Shown: piece by piece, positions 20,003-38,688 of the stretch
Layout of the letters: each line of letters opens with the position of its first letter
How positions within the stretch are numbered: the first letter of the stretch is position 1
From: Aerococcus viridans
GTDB lineage: Bacteria > Bacillota > Bacilli > Lactobacillales > Aerococcaceae
Length of the DNA: 64,000 nt
Reading direction: 5' to 3'
Assembly: GCF_001543285.1 (NCBI RefSeq)
Contig: NZ_CP014164.1
Span: 992,001-1,056,000, forward strand
The notes under the pieces: model-generated
The model's input: only the letters and a program-made list of their open reading frames with translations
What the model was told of the DNA's origin: nothing
The model's database searches: none
Position numbers and translations under genes: made by a program

Positions 20003-20017
20003 AAAGAGTACATTCAC

Positions 20018-20379
20018 GGGGGTGTTATTGGATTCGACAGGCATAGCCCGGTGTATGACTACTGCTCGGAGGTTACGGCTTCGCAACAACGTTACCAGTT
20101 TAAATATAACTGACAAACAAGAAACAAACACTTTAGCTTTCGCTGCCTAATAACAGCTAGCTAAGATTCGCCCGGCGTCACCTATGCGTTGGTTCCGAGT
20201 CCTATTATAGTAGGTTACGTTCTAAGCTTCCGTCTGGAGCAAGGAAAAGAGATTAATCAGACTAGCAATCTAAGTGGTTTGTTTATTCACCATTAGTGCG
20301 CAAATTCGAGAATAAACTATAGTGGTAAAAGTTATACAACCGGAGTGTTTGGACAGGGGTTCAAATCCCCTCACCTCCA
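20018..20379 (+). ncRNA. ssrA: tmRNA, copy 1
   Basis: Transfer-messenger RNA that rescues stalled ribosomes with SmpB. The 5' end GGGGGTG pairs with CACCTCC at the 3' end (7-bp acceptor stem with one G-U). GGATTCGACAGG is the conserved D-region, and GGGGTTCAAATCCCC is the T-arm. The tag frame probably starts at GAC 20112 and reads DKQETNTLAFAA before two stops at 20148-20153; the -LAFAA end fits a proteolysis tag. The CCA end is not encoded beyond its first bases. A terminator follows at 20403-20440. A second copy lies at 38327-38688. Confidence 0.97.
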
Positions 20380-20402
20380 CTATAGCTTTACTAAGCATTG
20401 CT

Positions 20403-20440
20403 AAGAGCTTTCAAACGCCGGTTTGAAGGCTCTTTTGCTT
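20403..20440 (+). terminator. Terminator after tmRNA copy 1
   Basis: A hairpin with arms AAGAGC(T)TTCAAAC and (G)TTTGAAGGCTCTT is followed by T-rich sequence. Confidence 0.85.
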
Positions 20441-20461
20441 TTTACACTTTGCCAGCAAATG

Positions 20462-20697
20462 CTATAAACCATTACCAACCATTACCATTTCCATTACTAC
20501 TTCAAAAATGGTAATGGTTTTTAGTTCTGGATTTTTAACGGCAGCTTTTACTATCTTCGTAGTATTTTCAATAAGAAAGATGTTATCGTAATCTACTACT
20601 ATTAGTTTATTGTCATCAATAGAAACAACCTCTATATATTGAAGTAGAAAGGCATAGACTTCAACTTCTGTTTGTGAATATAAAAAAAGTCAAAGGG
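20462..20697 (-). pseudogene. Unrecognised gene fragment
   Basis: On the minus strand a frame without a start codon reads about 75 residues (for example YAFLLQYIEVVSIDDNKLIV) to a stop at 20462-20464. A stop also lies just upstream, and the IS256-family end begins at about 20746. It looks like the 3' remnant of a gene broken during island assembly. I do not recognise the family; it does not resemble an integrase. Confidence 0.4.
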
Positions 20698-20745
20698 ATA
20701 TCCCTGATATATCGTTAATTGAGTTTTCAGATTGATGAATGAATC

Positions 20746-22061
20746 AAGTCCATAATCCTGTGTAAAATACTATACAATGTTTTACCGGTCTCTCATTGAT
20801 CAAACTTAATATATTTTCTTGTAGAACTGAGCCATTCGTCATGAAGGTCCATAAGGACAGCTCCAATTAATCGATTGGCAGACGTTCGGTTGGGAAAAAT
20901 CCGAATAATCTTTTCTCTTCTGCGGACTTCCTGGTTCAGTCGTTCAAGAAGGTTGGTGCTTTTTAGCCGATTGTGACCATTTCCGATAACCGTGTATTGA
21001 AAGGCATCTTCGAAGCCATTATCCAATGTTTCGCAAGCTTTTGTATATTTAGACTGGTCGATATATTCACCGATTAAGGCATTCTTAGCTGTTCGAGCGA
21101 GTTCAATATCCGTAAACTTAAAGATTGCTTTTACTGCTTCTCTAAACGGTTTTGAATTCTTTTTTGGAATGGAACTGAAGATGTTTCTTAAAAAATGGAC
21201 CTGGCATCTCTGCCAACTTGCGTTGGTAAATGACTTACGAATTGCAGACACTAGGCCTTTATGGGCATCAGAAATGATGAGTTCTGTCCCCTGTAGACCG
21301 CGTTCTTTTAAGTATTCAAAGAAGATGGACCATGTGTCATCACTTTCTTCATTTTGGATCATGAAGCCAATGATTTCACGATCACTACCTTCTGTTATCC
21401 CAATCGCAATATGGCAGCTTTTAGAAAGCACTCGATGGTCCTCACGGACTTTTATGTAGAGAACATCCGTCATCAGATAAGGATAACTCGTACCTGAGAG
21501 TGAACGGTTCTGCCATTCGTTGACCATCGGGTCTAACTGCTCAGTCAGGCTAGAAACAAAAGATTTCGATACCGATTTTCCACATAGCTCTTCAACAATC
21601 TTTGAAACTTTACGTGTCGAAACGCCTGAAACATACATCTCAAGCATTGAAGCGAGCAGTGCCTTTTCATTTCGCTGATAACGCTCAAACACCGTCGGTG
21701 AAAATTCACCATCACGTGTTCTAGGCACTTTTAACTCGAGTGTGCCCACACGAGTCGTAAAGTCTCGCTCATAATAGCCATTTCTTTGACTCTGACGACT
21801 TTCTGAACGTTCATAATCATCGGCTTGAATATATTCTGTTCGTTGATTTTCCATCAATTGGTTGAAAACAGTGGTCAAAATATTTTTAGAAACTTCATCT
21901 TTTACCGAATGTTCAATAATACTTTGAACCTCTTCGTTGTTCAGTGTAAAATGTACTTGGGTCATGTAACGTCCTCCTAGGTATGTTTTTGTGGTTAAAA
22001 ACATTGTACCGTAAAAGGGCTGTTACATGGCCTTTTATCTTTTACACAATTATATGGACTT
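20746..22061 (-). mobile_element. IS256-family insertion sequence
   Basis: Imperfect terminal inverted repeats (AAGTCCATAAT..TGTGTAAAA at 20746 onward, and its complement ending at 22061) enclose a single transposase gene. About 1.3 kb, the normal size. I could not see a clear 8-base target duplication, so one flank may have been rearranged. Confidence 0.8.
20793..21965 (-). CDS. IS256-family transposase
   Basis: A DDE transposase of about 390 residues. Acidic residues are in LMTDVLYIKV, IISDAHKGLVSAI and RLNQEVRRREKIIRIFPN, with CQVHFLRNI between the second D and the E as usual in this family. The start MTQVHFTL at 21965 is preferred over an upstream ATG at 22004, because GGAGG(ACG) lies directly before it. 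The frame is intact and could be active. Confidence 0.92.
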   Translation of the reverse strand: MTQVHFTLNNEEVQSIIEHSVKDEVSKNILTTVFNQLMENQRTEYIQADDYERSESRQSQRNGYYERDFTTRVGTLELKVPRTRDGEFSPTVFERYQRNEKALLASMLEMYVSGVSTRKVSKIVEELCGKSVSKSFVSSLTEQLDPMVNEWQNRSLSGTSYPYLMTDVLYIKVREDHRVLSKSCHIAIGITEGSDREIIGFMIQNEESDDTWSIFFEYLKERGLQGTELIISDAHKGLVSAIRKSFTNASWQRCQVHFLRNIFSSIPKKNSKPFREAVKAIFKFTDIELARTAKNALIGEYIDQSKYTKACETLDNGFEDAFQYTVIGNGHNRLKSTNLLERLNQEVRRREKIIRIFPNRTSANRLIGAVLMDLHDEWLSSTRKYIKFDQ

Positions 22062-22101
22062 TATCAATAGGTGTTTTTTTAATCTGTTTCTAATTTTCCG
22101 A

Positions 22102-22160
22102 TTGACATCCAAGTATATATAATTGTATATTTACATTATAGTTATTTAGATTACAATGTA
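22102..22160 (+). promoter_or_regulatory. Promoter and possible operator of the pxp operon
   Basis: TTGACA at 22102-22107 and TATATT at 22126-22131 (18-base spacer). Immediately downstream is a dyad, TACATT at 22132-22137 and AATGTA at 22155-22160. An IclR-family regulator gene closes the operon and is a natural candidate to bind it, but this is inference. Confidence 0.5.
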
Positions 22161-22176
22161 GTTATCAAGAAAGGTA

Positions 22177-22911
22177 GTGGACTATTTGGAAATTAAACAA
22201 TACACAGAAGACTCGTTAACATTACTATTTGGTGATGTGATAAGTCCCGATATTAATAAAAAAATAGTCAATTTAAGAAAATATATCGACAGCTTAAAAA
22301 TTAATGGAATAACAGAAATGATTATTTCATATACAAGATTGGTGATTTATTTTGATCCTTTAACATTAAATCAAAACATACTGATCGAAATCATTGAGCA
22401 GATTAATTTAGAAATAATCGATAATGAAGAATTCCCATATCGAGTTGTTGAAATCCCCGTTTGTTACGGTGGAGATTTTGGGCCGGATCTTTGGCGTTTT
22501 GAAGAAAAAGATCTAACAGTTGATGATGTGATTAAAAGACACACTGATAATGAATACTTAGTTTATATGTTAGGTTTTATGCCAGGGTTTGTTTATTTGG
22601 GTGGCTTAGATCCAGAAATTGCGATGGATCGATTAGAAACACCACGTACGCATATTGCGGCAGGCTCTGTCGGAATTGCTGGACAACAAACGGGTGTTTA
22701 CCCATATGATTCACCAGGTGGATGGAATCTAATTGGTCGTACACCGATTCAGCTTTATGATACACGTCGGGGTGAGGATACGATTTTATATAATGCTGGG
22801 GATCGTATTAAGTTTTATAGCATTTCAAATGAAGAATTTAATGAAATACAAAAACAAGTTGAAACAGGTACATATCAAGTTTCAGTCATATTGAAAGGTG
22901 TGAATGATTAA
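22177..22911 (+). CDS. pxpB: 5-oxoprolinase subunit PxpB (KipI/AHS1 family)
   Basis: A protein of about 240 residues of the allophanate-hydrolase subunit 1/KipI family. Typical segments are VVEIPVCYGGDFGPDL, YLVYMLGFMPGFVYLGGLD, and PRTHIAAGSVGIAGQQTGVYP followed by SPGGWNLIGRTP. In known PxpABC systems it works with PxpC and PxpA in ATP-dependent opening of 5-oxoproline to glutamate; the same domain is part of urea carboxylase. Starts GTG 22177 or TTG 22186 are both possible; AAAGG at 22170-22174 is better spaced for TTG. pxpC begins directly after its stop. Confidence 0.9.
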   Translation: MDYLEIKQYTEDSLTLLFGDVISPDINKKIVNLRKYIDSLKINGITEMIISYTRLVIYFDPLTLNQNILIEIIEQINLEIIDNEEFPYRVVEIPVCYGGDFGPDLWRFEEKDLTVDDVIKRHTDNEYLVYMLGFMPGFVYLGGLDPEIAMDRLETPRTHIAAGSVGIAGQQTGVYPYDSPGGWNLIGRTPIQLYDTRRGEDTILYNAGDRIKFYSISNEEFNEIQKQVETGTYQVSVILKGVND

Positions 22912-23904
22912 ATGGCATTTTACATACAAGAAGCAGGTATTTTATCCACCTTTCAAGATTTGGGCCGTTATGGTCATCAGTCGACAGGTATTTCACCAGC
23001 AGGCGTTTTAGATTACAAAAGTGCAATACTAGCAAACCAGTTAGTTGGCAATAACATTAATGAAGCGGTTATCGAAATGAATTTTACAGGAATTTCTTTT
23101 GATGTGATGAAGGATACGGTTATAAGTGTTGTCGGTGCTGAAATGCGTATCGATATAAATGGGCGACAATATACTGGTGGAAAAGCCATAAAACTCGCTA
23201 AAGGAGATCAGGTAAAATTTGGAAAAACTTTAAATGGTATCCGTTCATATTTAGCAGTTGCTGGAGGATTTCATCTAAAAAAAGAATTAGGTAGTTATTC
23301 GACTCACTTACGTACAGCAATGGGGGGTCATCAAGGTAGACCGCTTCAAAAGGGTGATTTGATAGCTTATAACGGAAAGAGTAATCATACATTTCCTTAC
23401 TATTCAAATGAAAAAGTAGGAGATACCAGAACGATACGAATTATTACAGGTCCTAATTATGATGACTTAACGATAGAAGCTAAAGAATCATTAACTAAAA
23501 CCCCTTATAAGATAACGCGGAGTAGTGATCGAATGGGTATCCGTTTAGAAGGAATAGCTTTAAAAACAACTGATGGCGTTCATGACATCCTCTCAGAACC
23601 AACCCAGCTTGGGAATATCCAAGTACCTAAAAATGGTCAACCGATTATTTTATTGAATGATCGACAGACCACAGGTGGATACAAGCGGATGGCTACCGTC
23701 GCAAAAATAGACTTACCTAAATTAGTACAAATACCACCAGAAGAAGAAATCTATTTTGAGTTAATCGAATTAGATGATGCAGTTTCACTATACAAAGATG
23801 AAATGAATAAATTATTGAACAATGACTATTTAAAGATTGATTCAGAACATAGTGATTACCGAAGAATTACTGCTGAAAAAGTTAAGACAATTTTAATGAG
23901 GTGA
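22912..23904 (+). CDS. pxpC: 5-oxoprolinase subunit PxpC (KipA/AHS2 family)
   Basis: A 330-residue biotin-dependent-carboxyltransferase-like protein (KipA/AHS2 domain). The family start is FYIQEAGILSTFQDLGRYG followed by GISPAGVLD; later come YLAVAGGF and the C-terminal NDRQTTGGYKRMATVAKIDL. Together with PxpB it forms the cyclophilin-like pair that in urea carboxylase makes the carboxyltransferase domain. Its ATG follows the pxpB stop with no gap, implying translational coupling. The biotin carrier gene comes 4 bases later. Confidence 0.9.
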   Translation: MAFYIQEAGILSTFQDLGRYGHQSTGISPAGVLDYKSAILANQLVGNNINEAVIEMNFTGISFDVMKDTVISVVGAEMRIDINGRQYTGGKAIKLAKGDQVKFGKTLNGIRSYLAVAGGFHLKKELGSYSTHLRTAMGGHQGRPLQKGDLIAYNGKSNHTFPYYSNEKVGDTRTIRIITGPNYDDLTIEAKESLTKTPYKITRSSDRMGIRLEGIALKTTDGVHDILSEPTQLGNIQVPKNGQPIILLNDRQTTGGYKRMATVAKIDLPKLVQIPPEEEIYFELIELDDAVSLYKDEMNKLLNNDYLKIDSEHSDYRRITAEKVKTILMR

Positions 23905-23908
23905 AAAT

Positions 23909-24343
23909 ATGAAAATGGATAATATAAAAGAATTAATCCAATTGATGAAAGATAATCATCTAAAAAGCTTAAAAGTAAAAGATGGGGATTTAGAAATTGA
24001 ATTAGAAGCTCATTCTAATTATTCAAATAAAGTGGTTGAATCGAGCAGTTCTCCAGAAACAAACTTAGAGAAAAGTGTGCCCAAAGATTCAAAACTAATT
24101 GAAATTCGTTCAACACAAATTGGAACTTTCTATACTCAGCCGGATGAAGATAGTACAGATACATTTGTTAAAGTAGGCGATAAAGTAACAAGCGGGGATC
24201 AAATTGGACTAATCGAAATTATGAAGTTATTTAATGAGGTTCGTGTAGACCATTCAGGAGTGATAGAGGAGATTTTAGTCACAAATGGTGAGCTGGTTGA
24301 GTACGATCAAGTATTGATGCTGCTTAGAACAGAGGAGGAGTAA
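23909..24343 (+). CDS. accB: Biotin carboxyl carrier protein of the pxp operon
   Basis: A 144-residue protein with an N-terminal AccB-type segment (DNIKELIQLMKDNHLKSLKV), a Ser/Glu linker, and a C-terminal biotinyl domain. The biotin-accepting lysine lies in IEIMKLFNEV; the usual Ala before Met is Ile. It is a paralogue of the fatty-acid accB at 50104 but more divergent in the biotin motif. Located between pxpC and a biotin carboxylase gene, it probably serves a carboxylation coupled to the Pxp proteins, and not malonyl-CoA synthesis. The symbol gives the family; the role is inferred. Confidence 0.88.
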   Translation: MKMDNIKELIQLMKDNHLKSLKVKDGDLEIELEAHSNYSNKVVESSSSPETNLEKSVPKDSKLIEIRSTQIGTFYTQPDEDSTDTFVKVGDKVTSGDQIGLIEIMKLFNEVRVDHSGVIEEILVTNGELVEYDQVLMLLRTEEE

Positions 24344-24345
24344 TT

Positions 24346-25701
24346 GTGCCAAAAGTTCTTGTCGCCAACCGAGGTGAAATTGCTGTCCGAATTATTAGAA
24401 CGCTAAAAGAGAAAAATATGAAAAGTGTGGCCATTTATAGTGTAGACGATAAAGACAGTTTACATGTTGCTTTAGCGGATGAAGCTTACTGTATTGGTCC
24501 AGCAAGTAGTTCGGAAAGTTATTTAAATATCGAACGGATTTTGTCCGCAGCTAAAATAAGCCAAGCAGATGCCATTCATCCGGGTTATGGTTTCTTAGCT
24601 GAAAATGAAACGTTTGTTCAACGATGTGAAGAAGAAGGCTTTAAATTTATTGGACCAAGCGGCAAATTAATTGGACTTATGGGGAATAAAGCAAAAGCTC
24701 GTGATACTGTTGGGAAAAATGGTTTACCGATTATACCAGGTAGCGAAGGCCCAATTAGAGATGCAAATGAAGGGTTAATCATTGCCAAAGAAATCGGTTA
24801 TCCAGTGGTGGTAAAAGCTGTTTCTGGAGGTGGCGGTAAAGGAATGCGCTTAATTGAATCTGAAAAAGAATTTAAGCGATTATTTCATGAAGCTCGAAAA
24901 GAGGCAATGAGTTCATTCAATGATAGTCGTGTTTATCTTGAGCGTTTTATTACTGATGCTCGCCATATTGAAGTACAGATTTTGGGAGATGGAAAAGGAC
25001 AAGCCGTTCATTTATTTGAAAGGGATTGTTCCATTCAAAATCATAATCAGAAAATTATAGAAGAAGCACCTGCAGTTATATTAGACGATTCTACAAGGAC
25101 TTATATCACAGAATTAACGGCTAAAGTAATGGCAAATTTACATTATGAGAGTGCTGGTACAGTTGAATATTTATATGTTGAAAAGGAAAAAGCTTTTTAT
25201 TTCATGGAAATGAATACACGAATCCAAGTAGAACATACTATTTCTGAGATGATTACTGGCATTGATATTGTGGAACAACAATTAGAAGTAGCCTTTAACG
25301 GACGCTTAACGGTTAATCAATCCGACATCCATATGAATGGTGTAGCAATCGAAGTTCGAATAAATGCTGAAAATCCTAGAAATAACTTTATGCCTTCACC
25401 AGGTAAAGTAGAATTACTGCACTTAAGTCAAGGGCATCATGTGCGAATAGATACACATTTATATCATGGATTTACAATATCACCACATTACGATGCGATG
25501 ATTGCGAAAATAATCACCTATGGCCATAATCGATCAGCCGCTATTTCAAAAATGAGACGTGTTCTTAGCGAAACAGTCATAGGACCAGTAGAAACAAATT
25601 TAGATTTTCAAGCATATATTATGGATCATCCTAAATATCAGGCGAATGATCTCAATATTCACTTTTTAAAAAATAATCACATTATTGAAGGAGGAGACTA
25701 A
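24346..25701 (+). CDS. accC: Biotin carboxylase of the pxp operon
   Basis: A 451-residue biotin carboxylase (ATP-grasp). It has the start VLVANRGEIAVRIIRT, the glycine-rich ATP loop SGGGGKGMRLIE, the catalytic stretch ERDCSIQNHNQKIIEEAPA (the usual HQK is NQK), and the metal/bicarbonate segment MEMNTRIQVEHT. Start is GTG 24346. It is clearly a second paralogue of accC at 51166. No AccA or AccD homologue lies nearby, so PxpB-PxpC could supply the acceptor-side domain. The stop overlaps the pxpA ATG (TAATG). Confidence 0.9.
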   Translation: MPKVLVANRGEIAVRIIRTLKEKNMKSVAIYSVDDKDSLHVALADEAYCIGPASSSESYLNIERILSAAKISQADAIHPGYGFLAENETFVQRCEEEGFKFIGPSGKLIGLMGNKAKARDTVGKNGLPIIPGSEGPIRDANEGLIIAKEIGYPVVVKAVSGGGGKGMRLIESEKEFKRLFHEARKEAMSSFNDSRVYLERFITDARHIEVQILGDGKGQAVHLFERDCSIQNHNQKIIEEAPAVILDDSTRTYITELTAKVMANLHYESAGTVEYLYVEKEKAFYFMEMNTRIQVEHTISEMITGIDIVEQQLEVAFNGRLTVNQSDIHMNGVAIEVRINAENPRNNFMPSPGKVELLHLSQGHHVRIDTHLYHGFTISPHYDAMIAKIITYGHNRSAAISKMRRVLSETVIGPVETNLDFQAYIMDHPKYQANDLNIHFLKNNHIIEGGD

Positions 25702-26459
25702 TGTATAAAGTTGATTTAAATGCTGATTTAGGCGAAAGCTATGGGAATTATACTATTGGAGATGATTCAGCAATTATTCCATTAATTTCTTCTGCTAATG
25801 TAGCTTGTGGTTTTCATGCTGGCGATCCGTTAGTTATGATGGATACACTTTTAAAAATAAAAGAAAGTGGCTCAACAGGTCTAGGAGCACATCCCAGTTA
25901 TCCAGATCGACAAGGGTTTGGACGTCGTTACATGGATATGTCGAAAGATGAAGTTCGAGCATTTCTATTATACCAATTAGCTGCAATAGACGGATTAGCA
26001 AAGACTGTTGGTTTAACGTTAAATCATGTTAAACCACATGGCGCACTTTACAACCAAACATTTAAAGATATTGAACTAGCTGAAACCATCGCCCAAACAG
26101 TGAAAGAATTTAATCCTAACTTAAAATTAGTAGGATTAGCGAATAACCACTTAGTCAAAGCAGGAGAAGCAATTGGTTTAAATATTGTACACGAAGTTTT
26201 TGCTGACAGAGCTTATGAATCTGACGGTACATTAGTTGATCGCCGTAAAGAAGGTGCCATGATAACCGATACTAAACATGCAGTTGAACGTGTTATTCGT
26301 ATGGTAAAAGAAGGAAAGGTAACCAGTATTGACGGTAAAGATATTTCCATCCAAGCAGATAGTATCTGTGTACATGGAGATGGAGAAAAAGCCCTTATTT
26401 TTGTTCGTGAAATTATAAAAGGATTAAAGGAAGATAATATTATGATTAACACATTTTAA
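25701..26459 (+). CDS. pxpA: 5-oxoprolinase subunit PxpA (LamB/YcsF family)
   Basis: A 252-residue protein with the hallmark start VDLNADLGESYGNY, then SANVACGFHAGDPLVM, GAHPSYPDRQGFGRR, and HVKPHGALYNQ, and the C-terminal SICVHGDGEKA. These carry the Asp/His residues of the YcsF deacetylase-like fold. In PxpABC it is required to convert 5-oxoproline to glutamate in the cytoplasm. It overlaps the preceding stop by one base, consistent with coupled expression. GGAGGAG precedes the start. Confidence 0.94.
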   Translation: MYKVDLNADLGESYGNYTIGDDSAIIPLISSANVACGFHAGDPLVMMDTLLKIKESGSTGLGAHPSYPDRQGFGRRYMDMSKDEVRAFLLYQLAAIDGLAKTVGLTLNHVKPHGALYNQTFKDIELAETIAQTVKEFNPNLKLVGLANNHLVKAGEAIGLNIVHEVFADRAYESDGTLVDRRKEGAMITDTKHAVERVIRMVKEGKVTSIDGKDISIQADSICVHGDGEKALIFVREIIKGLKEDNIMINTF

Positions 26460-26481
26460 AACTTGATTTGGAGGAACAAAA

Positions 26482-27714
26482 ATGAATAATGACAAAACAC
26501 TTTTAGAAACTGAAGCTGATAATAGAAAATTGAAAAGTAATCTATTAACAAGTATCTTTTTAATGATTACATCCGCAATTGGACCTGGATACTTAACTCA
26601 AACGGCAAATTTTACAGAGCAACTAGGTGCTAATTTTGCTTTTGCTATTATGTTAGCTATTGTAATTGCATTTGCAGCTCAAGTTAACGTATGGCGTGTA
26701 TTATCTGTAACTGGAATGTATGCACAAGATTTATCGAATAAAGTTTTACCTGGATTAGGATATGTTGTTAGTTTCTTTATTGTATTAGGTGGATTAGCAT
26801 TTAATATTGGTAACGTAGGTGGATCAGGTTTAGGTTTAAATGCTATTTTCGGTATAGACTACACAATTGGTGCTGTTATAACAGGAATTATTGCTATACT
26901 TATTTTTATCTCAAAAAACGGACAATCTTTAGTTGATCAATTTATTAAAATCCTTGGTGTAGTAATGCTAATATTAGCGCTATATGTAGCGGTTGTTACA
27001 AAACCACCAGTAGGAGAAGCATTGCAAAGTATGATTAGACCTCAAAATATTGAAAGTCTGATTTTACCTATAATTACATTAGTTGGAGGTACAGTTGGTG
27101 GGTATATTTCATTCTCTGGTGGTCATAAATTAATTGATGCAGGAATTACGGGTGTTAAAAATGCAAAAATTGCTTCGAATTCTGCAACATTTGCTATTTT
27201 AGGTTCTGGTGTAATGCGTTTGTTACTATTCTTTGTGTTTTTAGGTGTTGTTTCATCAGGCGTTGGATTAGATCCTAGTAACCCAGCAGCGTCAGGATTT
27301 GAAATTGCCTTAGGTCGTCCAGGTGAAATTATTTTTGGGATCATTCTTTTTTCTGCAGGAATTTCTTCAGTAATTGGTGCGGCTTATACAAGTGCATCAT
27401 TCTTGAAAACATTTCATCCGTTATTAGAAAAATATAATAACTTAGTTATTATAGGTTTTATAGTGTTTTCAACAATAGTATATGCCTTTATTGGACAACC
27501 CGTTATGTTATTAATTTTAGCCGGATCATTAAATGGCTTAATTTTACCTCTCACTTTAGGTACAATACTAATAGGAGCTAACCGAAAAAATATCGTAGGG
27601 GATGATTACAAACATCCTATATGGTTAACTGTGTTAGGTGTTATTGCAGCTGTTGCTACATTATACTTAGGAATTCAGTCATTAAGTGGTATAACAGCTC
27701 TGTGGCAAGGTTAA
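26482..27714 (+). CDS. NRAMP-fold transporter without metal motif (YcsG-like)
   Basis: A 410-residue membrane protein with about 11 hydrophobic segments, related to the NRAMP/MntH family. The family's first-helix metal motif DPGN is replaced by GPGY (SAIGPGYLTQ), and the sixth-helix MPH-type motif is replaced by a glycine-serine segment (VGGYISFSGGHKL). It is therefore unlikely to be a Mn/Fe transporter. Homologues next to PxpA/KipI genes (YcsG of Bacillus) are the closest context. Import of 5-oxoproline or a similar organic acid is my inference. It sits 22 bases after pxpA with its own GGAGG. Confidence 0.85.
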   Translation: MNNDKTLLETEADNRKLKSNLLTSIFLMITSAIGPGYLTQTANFTEQLGANFAFAIMLAIVIAFAAQVNVWRVLSVTGMYAQDLSNKVLPGLGYVVSFFIVLGGLAFNIGNVGGSGLGLNAIFGIDYTIGAVITGIIAILIFISKNGQSLVDQFIKILGVVMLILALYVAVVTKPPVGEALQSMIRPQNIESLILPIITLVGGTVGGYISFSGGHKLIDAGITGVKNAKIASNSATFAILGSGVMRLLLFFVFLGVVSSGVGLDPSNPAASGFEIALGRPGEIIFGIILFSAGISSVIGAAYTSASFLKTFHPLLEKYNNLVIIGFIVFSTIVYAFIGQPVMLLILAGSLNGLILPLTLGTILIGANRKNIVGDDYKHPIWLTVLGVIAAVATLYLGIQSLSGITALWQG

Positions 27715-27740
27715 TTTAGCAAGAGTAAAGAGGGATAAAA

Positions 27741-28511
27741 GTGTCTGGAAGTTATAAAATTATACAATCATTAGCAAGAGCATTTTTAATTATTGATTGT
27801 TTTACAGAAGAAGTAAAAGAATTGACATTAAATGAAATTAGTGAAAAAGTTGATTTAAATATTAATACGACACGTGGATTGGTTCAAACTATGCTGCACT
27901 ATAATTATTTATCTTACGACTTACAAGATAAACATTATCGATTAGGGTCAAACTTTTTAGAAAAAGTTGAGATAGCACAGTATGATTATACGGAAAAAAT
28001 TATTGAAATGATTCGTGGTGATTTACAGCGTATAGCAGATCAGTATTTTGTTTCTACTCGATTTCATAGTGTTGAAAATTTGAGTATTACCACTTTAATT
28101 GAACGTAAACCTAGTCGTTCGCGTTATATGCTCAGCATTCATAACCAAACAGATTTTCCACTAACGGCGTCCGCTTCTGGAAAGTTAATTCTAGCGCATT
28201 TATCCGAAACCCATTTAAATCAAGTTTTAAGTAAGGTACGATGGGAAAAATATGGACAAGGTACAATTACAGATCCCAATATTTTAAAAAAACAACTAAA
28301 GGATGTTACAAAAAATAATGTTTCAATTGAACGAGATGAGCTTGGAGATGGCTATGCTAGTATTGCTGTTCCAATTTTTAGGGACGAACAGTTGGTTTAT
28401 ACAATCTCCGTTGTTTCAACAACTCAGTTAATTAATGATTCATATGATGCATTAATTCAGGAGTTAAGAGACATTCAAGAAACCATTCATAAACTAGCTG
28501 AATTTCAATGA
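27741..28511 (+). CDS. IclR-family transcriptional regulator
   Basis: A 256-residue regulator. Residues 5-70 form a winged helix (SLARAFLIIDCF, LTLNEISEKVDLNINTTRGLV) and the remainder the IclR effector domain, ending with DELGDGYASIAVPIF and a last helical segment. It corresponds in position to kipR of the Bacillus kip operon. It closes the pxp operon and may control it through the dyad at 22132-22160. Start is GTG 27741 with an upstream AGAGGG site. A terminator follows at 28547-28578. Confidence 0.88.
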   Translation: MSGSYKIIQSLARAFLIIDCFTEEVKELTLNEISEKVDLNINTTRGLVQTMLHYNYLSYDLQDKHYRLGSNFLEKVEIAQYDYTEKIIEMIRGDLQRIADQYFVSTRFHSVENLSITTLIERKPSRSRYMLSIHNQTDFPLTASASGKLILAHLSETHLNQVLSKVRWEKYGQGTITDPNILKKQLKDVTKNNVSIERDELGDGYASIAVPIFRDEQLVYTISVVSTTQLINDSYDALIQELRDIQETIHKLAEFQ

Positions 28512-28546
28512 TAACATTTATTTCATATCAGTTGTAACGCCAAACT

Positions 28547-30826: not shown

Positions 30827-30847
30827 TGTAACAGTCTGTGTCCACGA

Positions 30848-31732
30848 CTACAAGGGCAAGACCACCCTTTCCGTCCTGGCCTCATACTGTTTTGACTCAG
30901 TGGCCGACCGATAGACGAATGACTTATCTCTTCCATTTTCAGACTGTTCTTCTTCCCAAGTTTTACGATAGTCTATGGGAGATTCGTAGTTTAGTGCGCC
31001 ATGCGGACGGAAATTATTCCACCAATGGACGTAGTCCATAAGTTGGACCTGCAGTTCATAGAGTGTATCGAATCGATTGTCGTAGACAAATTCAAACTTA
31101 AACGATTTATATGTCGATTCCGCTACGGCATTGTCATACGGATTTCCTTTTCTACTTAACGAGCGTTCAATGTCAAAGGTATCCAATAATTCATCGATCG
31201 TATGGTTATCAAATTCTTTTCCTCGATCGGTATGAAAAGTGTTCACCATATGTAGATCGCCCTTAACTGTCGCCAGGGCCTGCATGACTAAGTCAGCGGT
31301 CTTATGCGGTCCAGCGGAATAACCAATGATTTCACGATTAAATAAATCAAGGATAAAACATACATAAAACCACTTAGTAGCTACTTTGACGTAAGTCAAA
31401 TCCGTGACGATCACTTTCATCGGCTCTTCTTGTGAGAACTCACGGTTCAGGATGTTTTCGATTCTAGCTTGATTAACACCGGTTCTCTGGGGTTTGTAAG
31501 ACGGCCGGTTATATTTTGAGACGAGATGGAATTTTTTCATTATACGACCGATACGACGGCGAGAGACAGTAAAACCTCTCTTTTCAAGTACAGGTTTCAA
31601 TTTCCGCGTGCCGAACGCATTATTACTTCTTGCGAATTCTTCAATGATTGCTTGTTCGAGTTCTGATTCACTTTCTTTCTTTTTGGCTTCATAATAATAA
31701 GATCCTCTGTTAATTTTGAGGGCACGGCACAT
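30848..31732 (-). CDS. IS3-family transposase OrfB (integrase catalytic domain)
   Basis: A 294-residue rve-type DDE integrase. It has an N-terminal HTH_21 segment (CRALKINRGSYYYE) and acidic residues in VTDLTYVKV, TDRGKEFDN and NAVAESTYKSFKFE. The frame is open upstream of its first ATG and would be reached by -1 frameshifting from OrfA at the TTTAAAG heptamer (31804-31810, complement), giving a fused OrfAB. The reading KVEVIKANKHKYSISAM just before the ATG matches the family. Confidence 0.92.
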   Translation of the reverse strand: MCRALKINRGSYYYEAKKKESESELEQAIIEEFARSNNAFGTRKLKPVLEKRGFTVSRRRIGRIMKKFHLVSKYNRPSYKPQRTGVNQARIENILNREFSQEEPMKVIVTDLTYVKVATKWFYVCFILDLFNREIIGYSAGPHKTADLVMQALATVKGDLHMVNTFHTDRGKEFDNHTIDELLDTFDIERSLSRKGNPYDNAVAESTYKSFKFEFVYDNRFDTLYELQVQLMDYVHWWNNFRPHGALNYESPIDYRKTWEEEQSENGRDKSFVYRSATESKQYEARTERVVLPL

Positions 31733-31767
31733 CGCTGATATAGAATACTTATGTTTGTTTGCTTTGA

Positions 31768-32064
<297 letters not shown>

Positions 32065-32329
32065 AGATTCCTCCAGTGTGTTTCTTTTAGTATACACACC
32101 TTATCTTTTCTGTCCAACTCAGTGTAACCTATCCAAATTAAAGGAGAGATTTGAAAAGGGCGGCAAGATGTTTGAGCAGAAAAAGGAAGGTTAGGTAGTC
32201 AGCCCTTGCGTCTTTGAATGGGTTAGATTTTAAAAATGGGTGGTAGGGTGCTGGATAATTTTTGAATAGGTTGGTCTTGAGTAAGGGGAGATAGAAAGTA
32301 AAACAAGGGGAAGGGTTAGGGGGTAGCGA

Positions 32330-32952
32330 GTGAATGTTTTTTTGCTGACATTGCATGGAACAGACGAGGCCTATAGTCAGATCTTCCAGCCGCTCTTGAA
32401 GTGGCAGCTTCCACTCAAGTGGTATGTTGCCAGCCTCTTTCTTGTGCTTTTGCTGGCATTTCCCTCTATCCGTCAAGACGGGGGCCTAGCCCAAGCATTG
32501 AGCTCTCGACCAATAGGAGGAGCTGGCTGCTTTCCTTTGCCACCTACGTCGTTGCGGCTATCCCGGTGGAGGAAGTAGCCAGGCGGGGGTTCGCGCTCCT
32601 GCACCTGCAGAAGCGCTATAGCGCCTTTGTCGCGAGCATGATCATCGGTGTCCTCTGGGCAGTCTGGCATGCTCCGCTCCTGTTTAATTTGGACAATGTC
32701 ATGTCCACGTATCCGCTGCTGCCTTGGTTTGTCGACGCGATGATGGACTCAGTTATTTATGTTTGGCTCTACAATTCCATAAAGGGGAGCGTCTTTCTCT
32801 TGGTTCTTTACCATGCCTTGTCTAATACTTTGGGAGGTTTCGCGGGCTGGTCCACTGCTACTGCGAGCATCGTAATCGCCGCCCTCCTGCTCCTTATCTA
32901 CAAACCGGCCACCATCTCGGCGAATAGCCGAAAGTATAGCCTTTCGGATTAG
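32330..32952 (+). pseudogene. CPBP-family intramembrane protease, frameshifted
   Basis: The first frame (32330-32480) gives the family's N-terminal membrane part (PLLKWQLPLKWYVASLFLVL). The catalytic part continues in another frame from about 32480 to 32952: EEVARRGFALLHLQ (first glutamate motif), VLWAVWHAPLLF (FxxxH-like) and YHALSNTLGG (HxxxN-like). A frameshift near 32470-32510 separates them. The region is visibly richer in G and C than its surroundings, suggesting foreign origin. The 200 bases before it (32129-32329) are purine-rich and hold no recognisable gene. CPBP proteins are linked to bacteriocin immunity or protein processing; this copy is probably dead. Confidence 0.7.
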
Positions 32953-33054
32953 AAAAACTACTATAAAAGCAATAACTTGATATTCTTCAATTTTTTTCCT
33001 CCTTCTTTTCTTATGATAGAACCATCAATTGATGATTAAAAAAAGAAAGAGGAA

Positions 33055-33371
33055 TTGAATATGAGAAAGAACATAATGATGACAACAGGAGCCGTCTTGG
33101 CAGCCACAGGGGCACTGTTCCTAAATCCCCTGACGGCCAGCGCCCACTGCGAAACGATGGACGGACCAGTGATTGGCGATGCGCAAAAGCGCTCGCGGAG
33201 GAAAACTCTAGCTACATCGCGAAATGGGTATTGCCTGAACGGGAAGAAGACATTGAGGGTATCTTTGCTCAGGTGATGGAAGTGAGAGATGATAGCCCTG
33301 AGGCTCAGAAATTAGCCGATCAGTATCTCTTCGAGAATCTGGTCCGTATCCATTCAGAAATTTTTATCTAG
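33055..33371 (+). pseudogene. Secreted DUF6448-like protein, frameshifted
   Basis: From the start codon the frame gives a signal peptide (NIMMTTGAVLAATGALFLNP, cut after ASA) and the family start AHCETMDGPVIGDAQ. The frame then shifts near 33185; the continuation in another frame reads KALAEENSSYIAKWVLPERE, then SPEAQKLADQYLFENLVRIH, ending at 33371. These segments recall DUF6448 proteins. The sequence up to 33480 contains no further gene. Like its neighbour it is GC-richer and decayed. Function of the family is unknown. Confidence 0.65.
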
Positions 33372-33530
33372 CAGCCACCGAGGGTTCCAACTGGCCGAAG
33401 GCAAGCTGGAAGAAATGTTGCATGCCATGGCTATTGGCTAAAGAATGTTCTGCAGTCAGGAAGTCCATTTACACAGAATTATTGACACTCCCCTCGTTTT
33501 TCAATTCTAAAATAATAAAAAATGTTTAGT

Positions 33531-33559
33531 TTGCTATCGATTTTCTTTTCTAGTATACT
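33531..33559 (+). promoter_or_regulatory. Promoter of ykoFEDC
   Basis: TTGCTA at 33531-33536 and TATACT at 33554-33559, 17 bases apart, lie directly upstream of the riboswitch. Confidence 0.65.
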
Positions 33560-33584
33560 GAATTAACAAAATTAAATAGTTATT

Positions 33585-33718
33585 TAATCCGGAGAGCCTT
33601 TTAAAGGAGGCTGAGAGTGCTAGAAGCAGATTCGTGAACCTGATCAACTTTATTGTTGCGTAGGAAGATTGTAATTTTTACTATACTCTTTTTCTGGATT
33701 ATTAACTGGAAAAGGAGT
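33585..33718 (+). promoter_or_regulatory. TPP riboswitch with SD-sequestering expression platform
   Basis: The aptamer (33585-33670) has the conserved GGCTGAGAG (33609-33617) and GAACCTGATC (33636-33645) elements and the closing GCGTAGGAAG. P1 pairs AATCC (33586-33590) with GGAAGATT. Downstream, ACTCTTTTTC (33685-33694) is complementary to GAAAAGGAGT (33709-33718), which contains the ykoF ribosome site. A competing helix can form between 33578-33590 and 33696-33707. This predicts translational OFF with thiamine pyrophosphate bound; the aptamer is recognised, the switching scheme is inferred. Confidence 0.93.
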
Positions 33719-33725
33719 TTTTATT

Positions 33726-34358
33726 TTGTCAAAAAAAGAATATGTCTCGTATGGTAGTTGTGCAGTAGGCGTTCCTGGTTCAAAAGAAGGAATTGCCGGA
33801 ATTAGATTCAACTTAGCACCAATGTCTGATGACTTTGTGGATATTATCCTATCTTCACTTGAAAATGTAGATACTTCAATGGTGTGGAGTGAAACTGATC
33901 CCACTTCAACGGTTTATCGTGGTAGAGAATCGGCTGTATTTGACAGCGTTCGAGCAGTATTTTCTCAAGCATATCATGATGATGTACATATGAGTATTCA
34001 TATGACTATCTCGAAAGGTTGCCCAGGAGATCACGATGCAGACTACACGCTTGATTATGATGATAAGCGTATAAATAACCGCAACAGCCGCGAAATATCA
34101 TTCCCCGTTGTTGGTAAGTTTTCGCTGTATCCAATGGGCTCTGATAACTATATGTCACTTATTGAAGAGGTTGTTAACAATGGGATTGACCGAGGTGTTT
34201 TTGCTGGAAGTGGACATTACACGACTTACTTACAAGGTGATGTACATGATGTCTTTGATTATTTAGAATATGTTGCAGAAAGGGCTGGCAAAGATGTTAG
34301 TCATTATATCATAGAAGCTTCTTTACTCTGTAACTTACCGGAAGGTGAATCATTATGA
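33726..34358 (+). CDS. ykoF: Thiamine/HMP-binding protein YkoF
   Basis: A 210-residue YkoF-family protein, a soluble binder of thiamine or its hydroxymethylpyrimidine (HMP) moiety. It has two tandem ferredoxin-like halves: GIRFNLAPMSDDFVDIILSS in the first and FSLYPMGSDNYMSLIEEVVN in the second. Start is TTG 33726 behind AAAAGGAG, which the riboswitch can hide. First gene of ykoFEDC; its end overlaps the ykoE start (ATGA-type). Confidence 0.9.
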   Translation: MSKKEYVSYGSCAVGVPGSKEGIAGIRFNLAPMSDDFVDIILSSLENVDTSMVWSETDPTSTVYRGRESAVFDSVRAVFSQAYHDDVHMSIHMTISKGCPGDHDADYTLDYDDKRINNRNSREISFPVVGKFSLYPMGSDNYMSLIEEVVNNGIDRGVFAGSGHYTTYLQGDVHDVFDYLEYVAERAGKDVSHYIIEASLLCNLPEGESL

Positions 34359-34942
34359 ATAAAGAACCACTGAAATTAAGAGACTTTATTTTTATCGGAT
34401 TAATCTCTGTCGCATTTGGAATTGTTTATTTAATTGCATTATATTTAGGAGCTGCTTTAACAACTGCCCTTACTCCAGTAGGTATTGGTATTTTAGGATA
34501 TGAACCTTTTTATGGTATTTGGTTTATGGCACCTGTTGTTGCTCTTTATGTTCTTAGACGGCCAAGCGTTGGTATTATTACTGAAATATTTGCCGCTGTC
34601 ATAGAAGTTGTTTTAGGAAATGTTTTTGGTCCAATTGTTATAGTAAGTGCCTTTATCCAAGGTTTAGGTGTTGAATTGCCTTATATGTTTACGAAGTATC
34701 GTCGCTATAACATGAGAAATTCAATGGTAGGTGCCGTTTTGGCTACAATTTTCAGTTTTATCTGGACTGCATTCAGAAACGATTATGCTTCACTTGAAAT
34801 TTCTATTGTTATAGCTATCTTTGTTATTCGTTTAATAAGTTCACTTATTTTTACTGGATTTATTGCACATAAACTTTGTATTGCTTTAGACAACACTGGA
34901 CTATTGAAATCTTATGGTGTCAGTCATGAAAAAGATAAATAA
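34355..34942 (+). CDS. ykoE: ECF transporter S component YkoE
   Basis: A 195-residue membrane protein with five to six hydrophobic helices and the family segments ALTPVGIGILGYEPFYGIWF and EVVLGNVFGPIVIVSAFIQG. It is the substrate-capture subunit of an energy-coupling-factor importer for HMP/thiamine. It overlaps both neighbours by a few bases, so the four genes are translationally linked. Confidence 0.9.
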   Translation: MNKEPLKLRDFIFIGLISVAFGIVYLIALYLGAALTTALTPVGIGILGYEPFYGIWFMAPVVALYVLRRPSVGIITEIFAAVIEVVLGNVFGPIVIVSAFIQGLGVELPYMFTKYRRYNMRNSMVGAVLATIFSFIWTAFRNDYASLEISIVIAIFVIRLISSLIFTGFIAHKLCIALDNTGLLKSYGVSHEKDK

Positions 34943-36422
34943 TCACGGACTTGTTGTTGAACAATTAGAATTCTATCTAGAAAATAGCGTACAATTTTCA
35001 AATATGAGTTTTTCAATCAATCCTGGAGAAATTGTGCTCCTAGCGGGTGCAAGTGGATCAGGAAAAAGCACACTAGCAGGTGTTCTAACAGGATACTATC
35101 CTGAAAATGGCGGGACATTAAATTCCGGCACAATTTCTGTTTCGGGACAAGACATCTTATCTATGGACAATCAGGAATCTATGGAGTATATATCTGCATC
35201 ATTTCAGAATGCCCGACTAGCATTTGCTATGGAAAATCTCTATCAAGAATTAATTTTTTGCTTAGAGAACAAAGGTTTTGATCCTTCATTAATGGATGAA
35301 ATGGTTAAAGAACACGCAAAGAAAACAGGAGTTACCGAATTGCTTGAACGTTCTTTTGATGCCATGTCTGGCGGAGAATTACAGCGAGCAAACTTTTCAT
35401 GTTTGGAAATCATTGATCCACTCGTCTATATATTAGATGAACCATTTTCTAACTTGGATGATCAAAAAGCAAACGAACTTCAAGAAACAATTTTAGAACT
35501 AAAAAAACAAAATAAAATCATTCTAGTCATCGATCACCGTCTTGATAGGTGGCAATTCGTTGACCGAATGATGGTATTAAGTCGAGTGGGGCAACTTCTA
35601 GACACAAATATCTCACTTGATCCACTTTCTACTAACGATCAATCCCTACTTGAACAAGAAGGGTTATTATTAGAACTAGAAAGACCTCTGCAACGAGCAG
35701 AAGTATCAAATAACTTGGAGCCTATTTTTCAAATCGAAAATATTACGATTAAACTAGGAGAATATAAAACAAAGTGGCTGAAAAAAATGTGGCATCCTTA
35801 CCGCATTTTATTAAAAAACTGCAACATGAAGATTTACCCAGGAGAATTAATTGCATTACAAGGAAAAAGTGGATCCGGTAAATCAACTATTTTTCAGACG
35901 ATTCTGGGGGAATATCCTTTTGACGGGACTATGCATATGAAAGATTTAAAGTTTGATTCTAAGAATAGGAAAGATTGGCTTTCTCAAATTGGAGTTGTTT
36001 TTCAAGATCCTTCTCTTCAATTTTTAACAACTTCATGTTTTGAAGAATTGAAGATTGGAGTGCAAGCTGTTTATCCTGAAAAGAATGAAGAAGAAACTAC
36101 AAAATTAATCACTAATCTCTTGAAGCGACATAACTTAGAAGATCAAGCTTCTACTTCACCATGGCTTTTAAGTCAGGGTCAACAACGTCGATTAGCAGTA
36201 CTTTGTATGTTAATTAAAGGACAGAGACTGCTACTAGTTGATGAACCAACCTACGGTCAAGATAAACAAAATGCACTCGAAATTATGAATAATTTAAATG
36301 AACTCAGGCAAAATGGAACATCCATCATCTTCACCAGTCACGATCAGGAATTAGTAAAGCACTATGCTGATCGTGGTTATTTACTAGAAAACCAAGAGTT
36401 AATTGAGGTGTCCTATGATTGA
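34926..36422 (+). CDS. ykoD: ECF transporter ATPase YkoD (two ABC domains)
   Basis: A fused double ATPase of about 498 residues. Domain 1 has Walker A GASGSGKST, signature MSGGELQR and Walker B VYILDEPFSNLD. Domain 2 has GKSGSGKST, LSQGQQRR (signature with Q for the second G) and LLVDEPTYGQD, and TSHDQELV as H-loop. It powers the ECF importer with YkoC. ATG 34926 or 34914 could be the start; both lie within the end of ykoE. Confidence 0.92.
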   Translation: MKKINNHGLVVEQLEFYLENSVQFSNMSFSINPGEIVLLAGASGSGKSTLAGVLTGYYPENGGTLNSGTISVSGQDILSMDNQESMEYISASFQNARLAFAMENLYQELIFCLENKGFDPSLMDEMVKEHAKKTGVTELLERSFDAMSGGELQRANFSCLEIIDPLVYILDEPFSNLDDQKANELQETILELKKQNKIILVIDHRLDRWQFVDRMMVLSRVGQLLDTNISLDPLSTNDQSLLEQEGLLLELERPLQRAEVSNNLEPIFQIENITIKLGEYKTKWLKKMWHPYRILLKNCNMKIYPGELIALQGKSGSGKSTIFQTILGEYPFDGTMHMKDLKFDSKNRKDWLSQIGVVFQDPSLQFLTTSCFEELKIGVQAVYPEKNEEETTKLITNLLKRHNLEDQASTSPWLLSQGQQRRLAVLCMLIKGQRLLLVDEPTYGQDKQNALEIMNNLNELRQNGTSIIFTSHDQELVKHYADRGYLLENQELIEVSYD

Positions 36423-37137
36423 TCGCATTAACCCATTTATAAAACTAGTAACTGTTTTAGTCACCAGTTTACTCTTAATGTTCTCACCAGACTGGCGCCT
36501 CAATACTTTTATAATTGTGATTGTTCTCTTACTTCTATTTACTAGTAAAAGAGTTAAATTGAGGAAAGCATTAAAAATCATTCTTCCAGCTCTTATCTTA
36601 TCATGTGCTTTCTTCATTACTGGATGGCAGTTTAGTCATACTGGCGGTACTGACATTAGTCTATCTGCGCAATCAACACGTTTTGTTATGGAAGATGCTA
36701 CATTTTTAAATGGGCTACAATTAGGGACACGTATCTTTTCTTTCGCAGTACTCGGTTTATTAACAGCATTGACTATCTATCCAAATGAGTTAATTGCTAG
36801 TATGGTTCAGCAAGGAAAGTTATCGAATAGTCTATCTTATGGTGTTTTGGCATCTGTTTATCTAATCCCTTCAATGAGGAAAAATTATTCACAAGCAAAA
36901 CTAACTTATCAAGTTAGACAAATTAAATTGGGGAAATTTGATTATAGACCCATGATCGGACTCCTCATTCGGTCTATACGTTGGGCTGATGCATTGGCAA
37001 TGGCAATGCATGCAAAAGGTTTTTCTGAAGAACGGACCCATTACATTCAAACTAAAGTGAAGTGGTATGATGTTGTTTTTCTCATTACGCTTCCCCTCAT
37101 GACGTTAATCGGATTGGTATATCTCAGACTCCTCTAA
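36415..37137 (+). CDS. ykoC: ECF transporter T component YkoC
   Basis: A 240-residue EcfT-type membrane protein. It begins DRINPFIKLVTVLVTSLLLM and has the coupling-helix region near the C-terminus (SIRWADALAMAMHAKGFSEE, related to the family's AxxARGF motifs). It joins the ATPase to the S component. ATG 36415 follows GAGGTG and overlaps the ykoD stop. A strong terminator follows at 37236-37280. Confidence 0.9.
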   Translation: MIDRINPFIKLVTVLVTSLLLMFSPDWRLNTFIIVIVLLLLFTSKRVKLRKALKIILPALILSCAFFITGWQFSHTGGTDISLSAQSTRFVMEDATFLNGLQLGTRIFSFAVLGLLTALTIYPNELIASMVQQGKLSNSLSYGVLASVYLIPSMRKNYSQAKLTYQVRQIKLGKFDYRPMIGLLIRSIRWADALAMAMHAKGFSEERTHYIQTKVKWYDVVFLITLPLMTLIGLVYLRLL

Positions 37138-37235
37138 TTTAATTAAAAAATATTTTTACATTAGAAACGTATTTCGGTTGTACAATATTTGACGTTAGGG
37201 AATAAAAATGGTTCTATGTCAAACATACTAAGATT

Positions 37236-37280
37236 AGTAGTGTAATATACACGACGGTGGATTTACACTACTATTTTTTT
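37236..37280 (+). terminator. Terminator downstream of ykoC
   Basis: Ten-base perfect arms (AGTAGTGTAA at 37236-37245 and its complement at 37263-37272) are followed by a T-run. Confidence 0.9.
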
Positions 37281-37298
37281 ATCGACGAATTTACAATT

Positions 37299-38107
37299 GG
37301 TTCTGTTGCAAAGTTTTAAATAAAGAATAAAATCCCTTACGGTATCTATGATTTAAGCTGGGATTCCCAATAATACCTTGATTTCAGTACAGACCGAAAA
37401 CCCGAAGAGAGTGCCTTCTTTTCGGGTTTTCTTATATAATCCTCGAATGGCCTCCATGCCTTTAATCGTGGTAGAGGCAGTGCGTAAACTTCGATAGAAT
37501 TTATTGCGTCTCTTTACTGGACGATGGTCTTGTTCAATCAAATTATTCAGGTATTTAATGGTACGATGTTCTGTCCCTTGATAAAAGCCGTATTCTTTTA
37601 GTTTCTTAAAGGCACTTGTAATAGAGGGGGCTTTATCTGTGACTACAACCTTCGGTTCATCAAACTGCTTCACTAACCGCTTAAGAAAAGCATAGGCTGC
37701 TTGTGTGTCCCGTTTTTTACGTAACCAAATATCCAAGGTTAAACCATCTGCATCGATGGCTCGATACAAATAATGCCATTTTCCTTTAATTTTGATGTAC
37801 GTTTCATCCATTTTCCATGAATAAAAGGATTTTTTATTTTTCTTTTTCCAAATTTGATAGAGTAGTTTGCCATATTCTTGCACCCAACGATAAATCGTCG
37901 TATGAGAAACGTTAATGCCACGATCATATAAGATTTCTTGAACTTCACGATAGCTAAGGTTATAACGAAGATAGTAGCCCACGGCTACAATAATCACATC
38001 CTGCTGAAATTGCTTTCCTTTAAAATGATTCATCGTCATTCCTCCTGCTATCTTTTTCTATTATGCTACCTTATTTGATAGTAGATTTAAAACCTTGCAA
38101 CAGAACC
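37299..38107 (-). mobile_element. IS1216-like IS6-family insertion sequence
   Basis: Terminal inverted repeats start GGTTCTGTTGCAAAGTTTTA at 37299 and the complementary end at 38107 (one mismatch, AAGG for AAAG). Total length is 809 bases, the size of IS1216. No 8-base target duplication is visible, which is common after IS6-type cointegrate rearrangements. Confidence 0.95.
37353..38033 (-). CDS. IS6-family (IS1216-like) transposase
   Basis: A 226-residue DDE transposase. N-terminal HTH (SYREVQEILYDRGINVSHTT), catalytic residues in KMDETYIKIKG, VVTDKAPSITSAF and LIEQDHRPVKRR. The start MNHFKGKQF is the family start (codon 3 of the longest frame). Intact and probably active. Such elements drive gene capture and rearrangement in Enterococcus, Lactococcus and Aerococcus. 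Confidence 0.95.
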   Translation of the reverse strand: MNHFKGKQFQQDVIIVAVGYYLRYNLSYREVQEILYDRGINVSHTTIYRWVQEYGKLLYQIWKKKNKKSFYSWKMDETYIKIKGKWHYLYRAIDADGLTLDIWLRKKRDTQAAYAFLKRLVKQFDEPKVVVTDKAPSITSAFKKLKEYGFYQGTEHRTIKYLNNLIEQDHRPVKRRNKFYRSLRTASTTIKGMEAIRGLYKKTRKEGTLFGFSVCTEIKVLLGIPA

Positions 38108-38133
38108 AAAATGAATAATGGAAAAGAGTATAT

Positions 38134-38163
38134 AAAAAACCAGGCAATCTAATGATTACCTGG
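38134..38163 (-). terminator. Terminator after tmRNA copy 2
   Basis: On the minus strand, CCAGGTAAT and ATTGCCTGG form a hairpin followed by TTTTTT. It lies about 165 bases beyond the tmRNA 3' end; the bases between show no gene. Confidence 0.75.
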
Positions 38164-38326
38164 CAGATATTACTCATCAGTCCTATTTGACGAAGAGCCT
38201 ATTAATAAATACTAAATAACGTATTCGCGATATTTGAAATTATTTACCAACACTATTTGTAAAAGAACCATTTTCCTAAGCGCTTTTTTTATACCTCAGC
38301 AGTATATTACCGCTCGAATAAAATTA

Positions 38327-38688
38327 TGGAGGTGAGGGGATTTGAACCCCTGTCCAGACACTCCGATTATATAACTTTTACCACTATAGTTTATTCTCGA
38401 ATTTGCGCACTAATGGTGAATAAACAAACCAATTAGATTGCTAGTCTGATTAATCTCTTTTCCTTGCTCCAGACGGAAGCTTAGAACGTAACCTACTATA
38501 ATAGGACTCGGAACCAGCGCATAGGTGACGCCGGGCGAATCTTAGCTAGCTGTTATTAGGCAGCGAAAGCTAAAGTGTTTGTTTCTTGTTTGTCAGTTAT
38601 ATTTAAACTGGTAACGTTGTTGCGAAGACGTAACCTCCGAGCAGTAGTCATACATCGGGCCATGCCTGTCGAATCCAATAACACCCCC
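38327..38688 (-). ncRNA. ssrA: tmRNA, copy 2
   Basis: A second full-length tmRNA gene, also 362 nt, in the opposite orientation to copy 1. The acceptor stem, D-region, T-arm and tag frame (DKQETNTLAFAA with two stops) are all intact. Eight bases differ from copy 1. In the long helix beside the acceptor, positions matching 20051 and 20340 change together (G-C to A-U), 20337 changes a G-C to a G-U, and 20045/20349 change A-U to G-C. TTGACA and TATTAT promoter elements lie upstream (about 38703-38732). Both copies look functional. Confidence 0.96.

Follow-up and report, generated by a model that had tools for sequence, protein, structure and literature searches.

Two intact and diverged ssrA genes in one Aerococcus viridans chromosome

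The window analyzed in this work, a stretch of 64,000 nucleotides of the Aerococcus viridans chromosome (contig NZ_CP014164.1), includes two ssrA genes, which code for transfer-messenger RNA (tmRNA). Exactly two tmRNAs were called by ARAGORN in the window, and both are members of the one-piece tmRNA family RF00023:

20018..20379, plus strand: ssrA copy 1 (ARAGORN call, 20018-20380; RF00023, 149.8 bits)
38327..38688, minus strand: ssrA copy 2 (ARAGORN; RF00023, 150.9 bits)

Each copy matched RF00023 over its full length (model positions 1-374) and above the curated cut-off of 47 bits, and each contains an open tag frame ending in AA that encodes the same tag, DKQETNTLAFAA, and the long helix that connects the tRNA-like part with the mRNA-like part. 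A previous reading of the stretch made from the sequence only had placed two complete ssrA genes with identical tags here, and the ARAGORN calls and the end-to-end family matches have borne it out. It had also proposed a comparison of covariance-model scores, and both were found to be normal for the genus, because the single RF00023 matches present in each of the remaining 14 genus genomes range from 133.5 to 167.5 bits. The third acceptor pair is G.U in both copies by sequence, a feature presumably relevant to charging with alanine. The genome consists of one contig of 2,199,877 bp (completeness 99.96%, contamination 0.8%) in which these two genes are the only RF00023 matches over the cut-off.

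Each ssrA gene is part of an inverted repeat unit of about 611 bp that also includes a spacer and the start of a csbD-like gene. The adjoining features are the following:

19769..20379, plus strand: duplicated unit copy 1 (csbD start, spacer, ssrA; inverted repeat with arms of 443 nt, 94%, and 172 nt, 91%)
38327..38938, minus strand: duplicated unit copy 2 (inverted repeat)
19771..19846, minus strand: csbD-like remnant adjoining copy 1, cut by the right end of an IS605-type element (sequence comparison)
38861..39079, plus strand: intact csbD-like gene adjoining copy 2, 72 amino acids (sequence comparison)
39563..40510, plus strand: nucleoside hydrolase gene (Pfam IU_nuc_hydro), right-hand marker of the ancestral-looking gene order found in relatives

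The open reading frame (ORF) at 38861-39079 is taken by us to be csbD by resemblance. Both ssrA copies are chromosomal and lie 18 kb apart, and the longest identical run between the inverted units is 110 nt, so the 18 kb between them could be predicted to flip. That one copy derives from an assembly artefact or a mixed culture is extremely improbable: the genome is a single, nearly complete contig with little contamination, and differences between the copies are spread over the whole repeat, with unlike sequence flanking each copy on either side.

Direct comparison has confirmed that the two 362-nt genes differ at 8 positions (gene numbering 28, 34, 61, 172, 257, 320, 323 and 332). Three covarying pairs had been claimed among these differences, and two of them were recovered: at the pair 34/323 (window 20051/20340) copy 1 has G-C where copy 2 has A-U, and at the pair 36/320 (window 20053/20337) copy 1 has G-C where copy 2 has G-U, both with pairing probabilities of 0.93-1.0 in the two folded copies. 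Across 17 aligned genus sequences, where the genome G009 is present as two loci (L046 and L054) and counted once, the pair 34/323 is A-U in 6, G.U in 5, G-C in 4 and G.G in 2 sequences, and the pair 36/320 is G.U in 10, G-C in 6 and G.A in one. The P2-type helix is maintained in both copies. Over the 17 sequences 94.7% of its cells are paired and 10 of its 20 pairs are changed on both sides, values matched by none of 500 shuffles for either paired cells or two-sided changes, in a test inflated by the relatedness of the sequences. Slid versions of the helix have 23-41% of cells paired, a comparison also biased because the structure was derived from the same sequences. The weakest pairs are 43/313 (8/17) and 35/322 (11/17).

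The third claimed pair, 28/332 (window 20045/20349), was not sustained, since position 332 pairs with position 23 in all 17 genus sequences and position 28 has no partner above a probability of 0.05 in any of the four sequences that were folded at full length; the rejection rests on these two results because 28/332 itself is likewise a standard pair in 14/17 sequences. A covariance model with other pairs had been named as evidence against the proposed pairing, and the Rfam alignment does use another register at positions 33-35 (33/323 and 34/322), together with 23/332. However, the genus data favor 34/323, which is a standard pair in 15/17 sequences versus 1/17 for 34/322; the Rfam pairs 33/323 (15/17) and 35/321 (12/17) are no worse than the folded register at those places.

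The comparison with close relatives has indicated the direction of these changes. At the pair 34/323 a G.U wobble is found in G003, G013, A. agrisoli and G009, whereas copy 1 has G-C, and A-U is shared by copy 2 and G007. It had been described as a compensated change from G-C to A-U, and the pair is real, but the double substitution is ruled out because these four close relatives have G.U; the contrast consists of two single steps away from the wobble pair, and makes a clear case of alleles leaving G.U in opposite directions. The pair 23/332 is G-C in copy 2 and G007, and G.U in copy 1 and the same four relatives. The 8 differing sites give 16 states, of which 15 are matched by the same base in at least one of these five relatives, and the unmatched one, C323 of copy 1, completes a G-C pair that three more distant genus sequences also have. 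The helix changes need not date from a shared genome, and show no more than the retention of a working gene in each lineage.

Conservation of the genes was compared with that of their upstream sequences in a set of seven sequences limited to the two copies and the close relatives. The two copies differ at 33/249 positions upstream and at 8/362 in the gene, where about 48 differences would be expected at the upstream rate. The corresponding values are 35/250 and 5/362 for A. agrisoli and G009, and 4/250 and 2/362 for copy 2 and G007, so that the contrast between the copies falls within the range of other pairs; on this basis gene conversion was rejected as the chief reason why the genes have diverged so little. 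A short conversion near positions 285-288 is possible, where copy 1 has the bases of copy 2 rather than those of G007. Compared with the four outer relatives (G003, G013, A. agrisoli and G009), the copy 1 gene shows 21, 19, 21 and 21 differences, and the copy 2 gene shows 19, 21, 23 and 21. Copy 1 has no sign of decay and both copies bear marks of purifying selection; the earlier claim that both evolved under selection holds to this extent, but not through compensated double changes in a shared genome. The copy 1 data show a working past rather than present expression, and a recently arrived gene would look alike.

The expression signals around both genes and the tmRNA partner protein gene are the following:

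19973..20002, plus strand: promoter-like site of copy 1, TTGACA-18-TATTAT (11/12 matches; 4 found versus 4.1 expected in shuffles)
38704..38733, minus strand: promoter-like site of copy 2, TTGACA-18-TATTAT (11/12 matches; 6 found versus 5.5 expected in shuffles)
20403..20434, plus strand: terminator-like hairpin downstream of copy 1 (1 found versus 0.7 expected in shuffles)
38139..38164, minus strand: first terminator-like hairpin downstream of copy 2 (3 found in the stretch versus 0.5 expected)
38200..38278, no strand assigned: ISL3-type element end behind copy 2 (98.7% to a G003 stretch adjoining an ISL3 transposase gene)
14554..15027, plus strand: smpB, tmRNA partner protein gene (Pfam SmpB)

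The promoters claimed for both copies are present as motifs, but such matches are no more frequent in the stretches scanned than in shuffled sequence. The terminator-like hairpin of copy 1 begins 24 nt past the gene end. For copy 2, an ISL3-type end lies about 50 nt downstream and the first hairpin begins 163 nt past the gene end, and its 3' end may therefore be formed differently from that of copy 1. The nearest named matches of smpB were an Aerococcus metagenome-assembled genome (99%), A. agrisoli (87%) and Aerococcus sp. 1KP-2016 (87%). Both ssrA copies are probably transcribed, and as ordinary one-piece tmRNAs that share a tag they would be expected to act redundantly with SmpB on stalled ribosomes. 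It is unlikely that one of them is silent or being lost, retained by chance after a recent event. The ISL3-type end and the distant hairpin behind copy 2 would agree with such a loss, as would the absence from copy 1 of two pairs (61/72 and 257/275) that the Rfam alignment gives to copy 2; but the copy 1 bases at positions 61 and 257 are also found in single-copy relatives, and the tag, acceptor stem and promoter-like site are kept in both genes. If expression had been lost only very recently, however, the sequence would not show it.

The two csbD-ssrA arrangements occur singly in relatives. The gene order in A. agrisoli and G009 is fbp, a phosphatase gene, ssrA(-), csbD(+) and nucleosidase, and the right-hand part of this order is retained by copy 2, csbD and nucleosidase in the window and by G007 from its contig edge. 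In G003 the order is csbD(-), ssrA(+) and then about 25 kb before the nucleosidase gene, and copy 1 has the G003 orientation. Within the 411 bases behind copy 1, 150 match G003 at 75%, and G004, G007 and G009 match there only the last 47-54 bases, which belong to an IS end and recur in this genome. In G013, ssrA(+) and csbD(+) are adjacent, and three relative orientations of the two genes are thus seen among close genomes (G013, locus L050, 5970-6960; G003, locus L040, 6004-6760; A. agrisoli, locus L053, 11488-12220). The ssrA genes of G003 and G013 differ at 2/362 positions and their upstream sequences at 117/227 compared positions; therefore, the gene and its surroundings have parted at least once more in the group.

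Sequence identity around copy 2 is mosaic. From 38261 to about 39400, including copy 2 and csbD, identity to G007 is 97-99%; from about 39400 to about 40000, which covers most of the first half of the nucleosidase gene, it is 92-93% to G007 and 97.7-97.9% to G003; beyond about 40000 identity to G003 drops to 94.0%, and that to G007 rises to 98.3% from 40300. At copy 2, the gene or its flank is therefore nearer to another lineage than the surrounding core, which shows exchange there and not which of the copies was added.

Both genes are intact, the main helix is kept, the differences from relatives are like those of orthologues and the surroundings are mosaic. The pair probably represents two functional-looking alleles of a single locus. 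Recombination between Aerococcus lineages, in a stretch rich in insertion sequences (IS), would have brought into one chromosome the ssrA(-)/csbD(+) arrangement beside nucleosidase, as in G007, A. agrisoli and G009, and the csbD(-)/ssrA(+) arrangement, as in G003. That one copy arrived from a related strain had already been proposed, and a two-lineage origin, with the mosaic identities to G007 and G003, is what fits best; either copy may be the newcomer.

It is rather unlikely that an ancestor shared with G007 duplicated the csbD-ssrA unit in inverted orientation, with both copies under selection and a later loss of copy 1 in G007. In favor of such an old duplication, copy 1 shows just 8 differences to copy 2 and 10 to G007, compared with 19-21 to the remaining four relatives, but a second copy is absent from all the other 14 genus genomes, the stretch downstream of copy 1 matches G003 and not G007, and the mosaic from copy 2 to nucleosidase shows exchange in the region. 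The tree placement proposed in the sequence-only reading was obtained for copy 2, which groups with G007 at 69% with ssrA alone and at 94% when the upstream sequence is included. It was not obtained for copy 1, which ssrA alone does not place (64% at the next branch) and which joins copy 2 and G007 against the other four at 73% in the longer alignment. The tree would fit transfer from an unsampled lineage as well as old duplication with loss in G007.

Several points weigh against an origin by transfer. The weak branches with ssrA alone are among them, and the 73% grouping is also expected from an old duplication. No donor of copy 1 was found among the relatives compared. The copy 1 gene has 21 differences to G003 versus 19 for copy 2, and its link to G003 consists of the arrangement and the 75%-alike downstream stretch only. 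In addition, the G007 assembly is a draft with 93% completeness, and its contig stops right behind ssrA, so that the missing second copy is weak evidence there. Transfer rather than old duplication is nevertheless inferred as the source of the pair, because none of the 14 other genus genomes has two copies and the region is mosaic.

The usual presence of a single ssrA gene, as previously assumed, was confirmed in Lactobacillales. At a threshold of E <= 1e-25, 387 of 395 genomes have one RF00023 match, 6 have none and 2 have two, namely this genome and G099, where the second match is degenerate (72.2 bits) and was not called by ARAGORN. In a sample of the phylum, in which raw matches were counted, 7/398 genomes have at least two (G000, G401, G448, G465, G527, G595 and G788) and 25 have none. 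Because ssrA is single in 387/395 Lactobacillales, a genome with two diverged but intact alleles offers a natural experiment on the dosage and redundancy of tmRNA. As a separate observation, the six Lactobacillales genomes with no match over the cut-off (G398, G188, G193, G257, G310 and G035) gave none on a second search either, although G398 is a single contig and 99% complete.

Complete genomes with a second or third ssrA allele have already been reported (PMC4131195), though a literature search pairing two tmRNA genes with ssrA returned nothing. The copies described here are both chromosomal, 18 kb apart, inverted and equal in tag; the relevant passage of that report offers no details for a comparison. 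Four mycobacteria are described in PMC9569102 as having extra tmRNA genes, attributed there to horizontal transfer, which resemble those of phage Nappy or Tsukamurella and have a different tag, whereas both copies in this genome are Aerococcus-like with the same tag. With respect to RF00023, the sole difference from an ordinary one-piece tmRNA is the copy number, both copies being full-length members with a normal tag. Two diverged intact ssrA genes in one genome seem an uncommon case of a known kind, with no new mechanism needed.

Other elements located beside the two ssrA genes are the following:

19100..19770, plus strand: IS605-type (TnpB) element, right-hand 671 bp (matches 15 longer genome copies; Pfam OrfB_IS605)
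20793..22004, minus strand: Mutator/IS256-type transposase (Pfam Transposase_mut)
37353..38039, minus strand: IS240/IS6-type transposase, inverted ends at 37297-37333 and 38073-38109 (Pfam DDE_Tnp_IS240)

The IS605-type element is present in the genome as 15 copies of about 1.8 kb, with a 380-amino-acid ORF in 10/15 and TTTAT before the left end in 15/15, and a shorter 16th match. The left side of the remnant at copy 1 joins a small ORF behind a TANGO2-family gene; a similar small ORF was seen by eye after the match of that gene in G013. The sequence adjoining the remnant matches the intact csbD of copy 2, and this target (<=3 mismatches) occurs at only these two places in the genome. The right end meets csbD at a motif that is TTTAT in G007 and G003 and TGTAT in the csbD of copy 2, a change corresponding to Lys27Thr, with Lys at the site in five relatives. 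Since 5/219 positions differ between the csbD genes of copy 2 and G007, the chance of a hit in the 5-base motif was reckoned at about 0.11, and the change is suggestive at most. TnpB proteins carry out RNA-guided cutting, and the guide lies in the sequence adjoining the right end of the element. If the IS605-type elements are RNA-guided, it could be proposed, as a very unlikely scenario, that the haplotypes coexist because the second csbD is uncuttable, or that a cut drove their joining.

Insertion of an integrative element at the 3' end of ssrA was considered. No further end piece was found in the window (<=3 mismatches) or in the genome, and integrase families were not seen among the 30 window ORFs scanned, a subset of those in the window. 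No close plasmid carrier of ssrA and its flank was found among the 13 plasmid matches, which all correspond to window positions 19700-19772, the IS end only. No close phage carrier was found either, the two matching Enterococcus phage records aligning with ssrA at 73% over 28% of the query; these records (PQ520091.1 and OR846644.1) are short and unannotated and may hold host DNA. A stretch before the nucleosidase gene of G003 (L101) resembles by eye the ssrA 3' end and lies about 25 kb away from the intact gene. An element inserted at ssrA could have its far end there; a pattern written for this stretch had no match in the examined loci.

Two further RNA features of the window are ordinary-looking: an RNase P RNA of class B at 57337-57698 (minus strand), and a thiamine pyrophosphate (TPP) riboswitch at 33580-33683 (plus strand), located before YkoF-family and ABC transporter genes.

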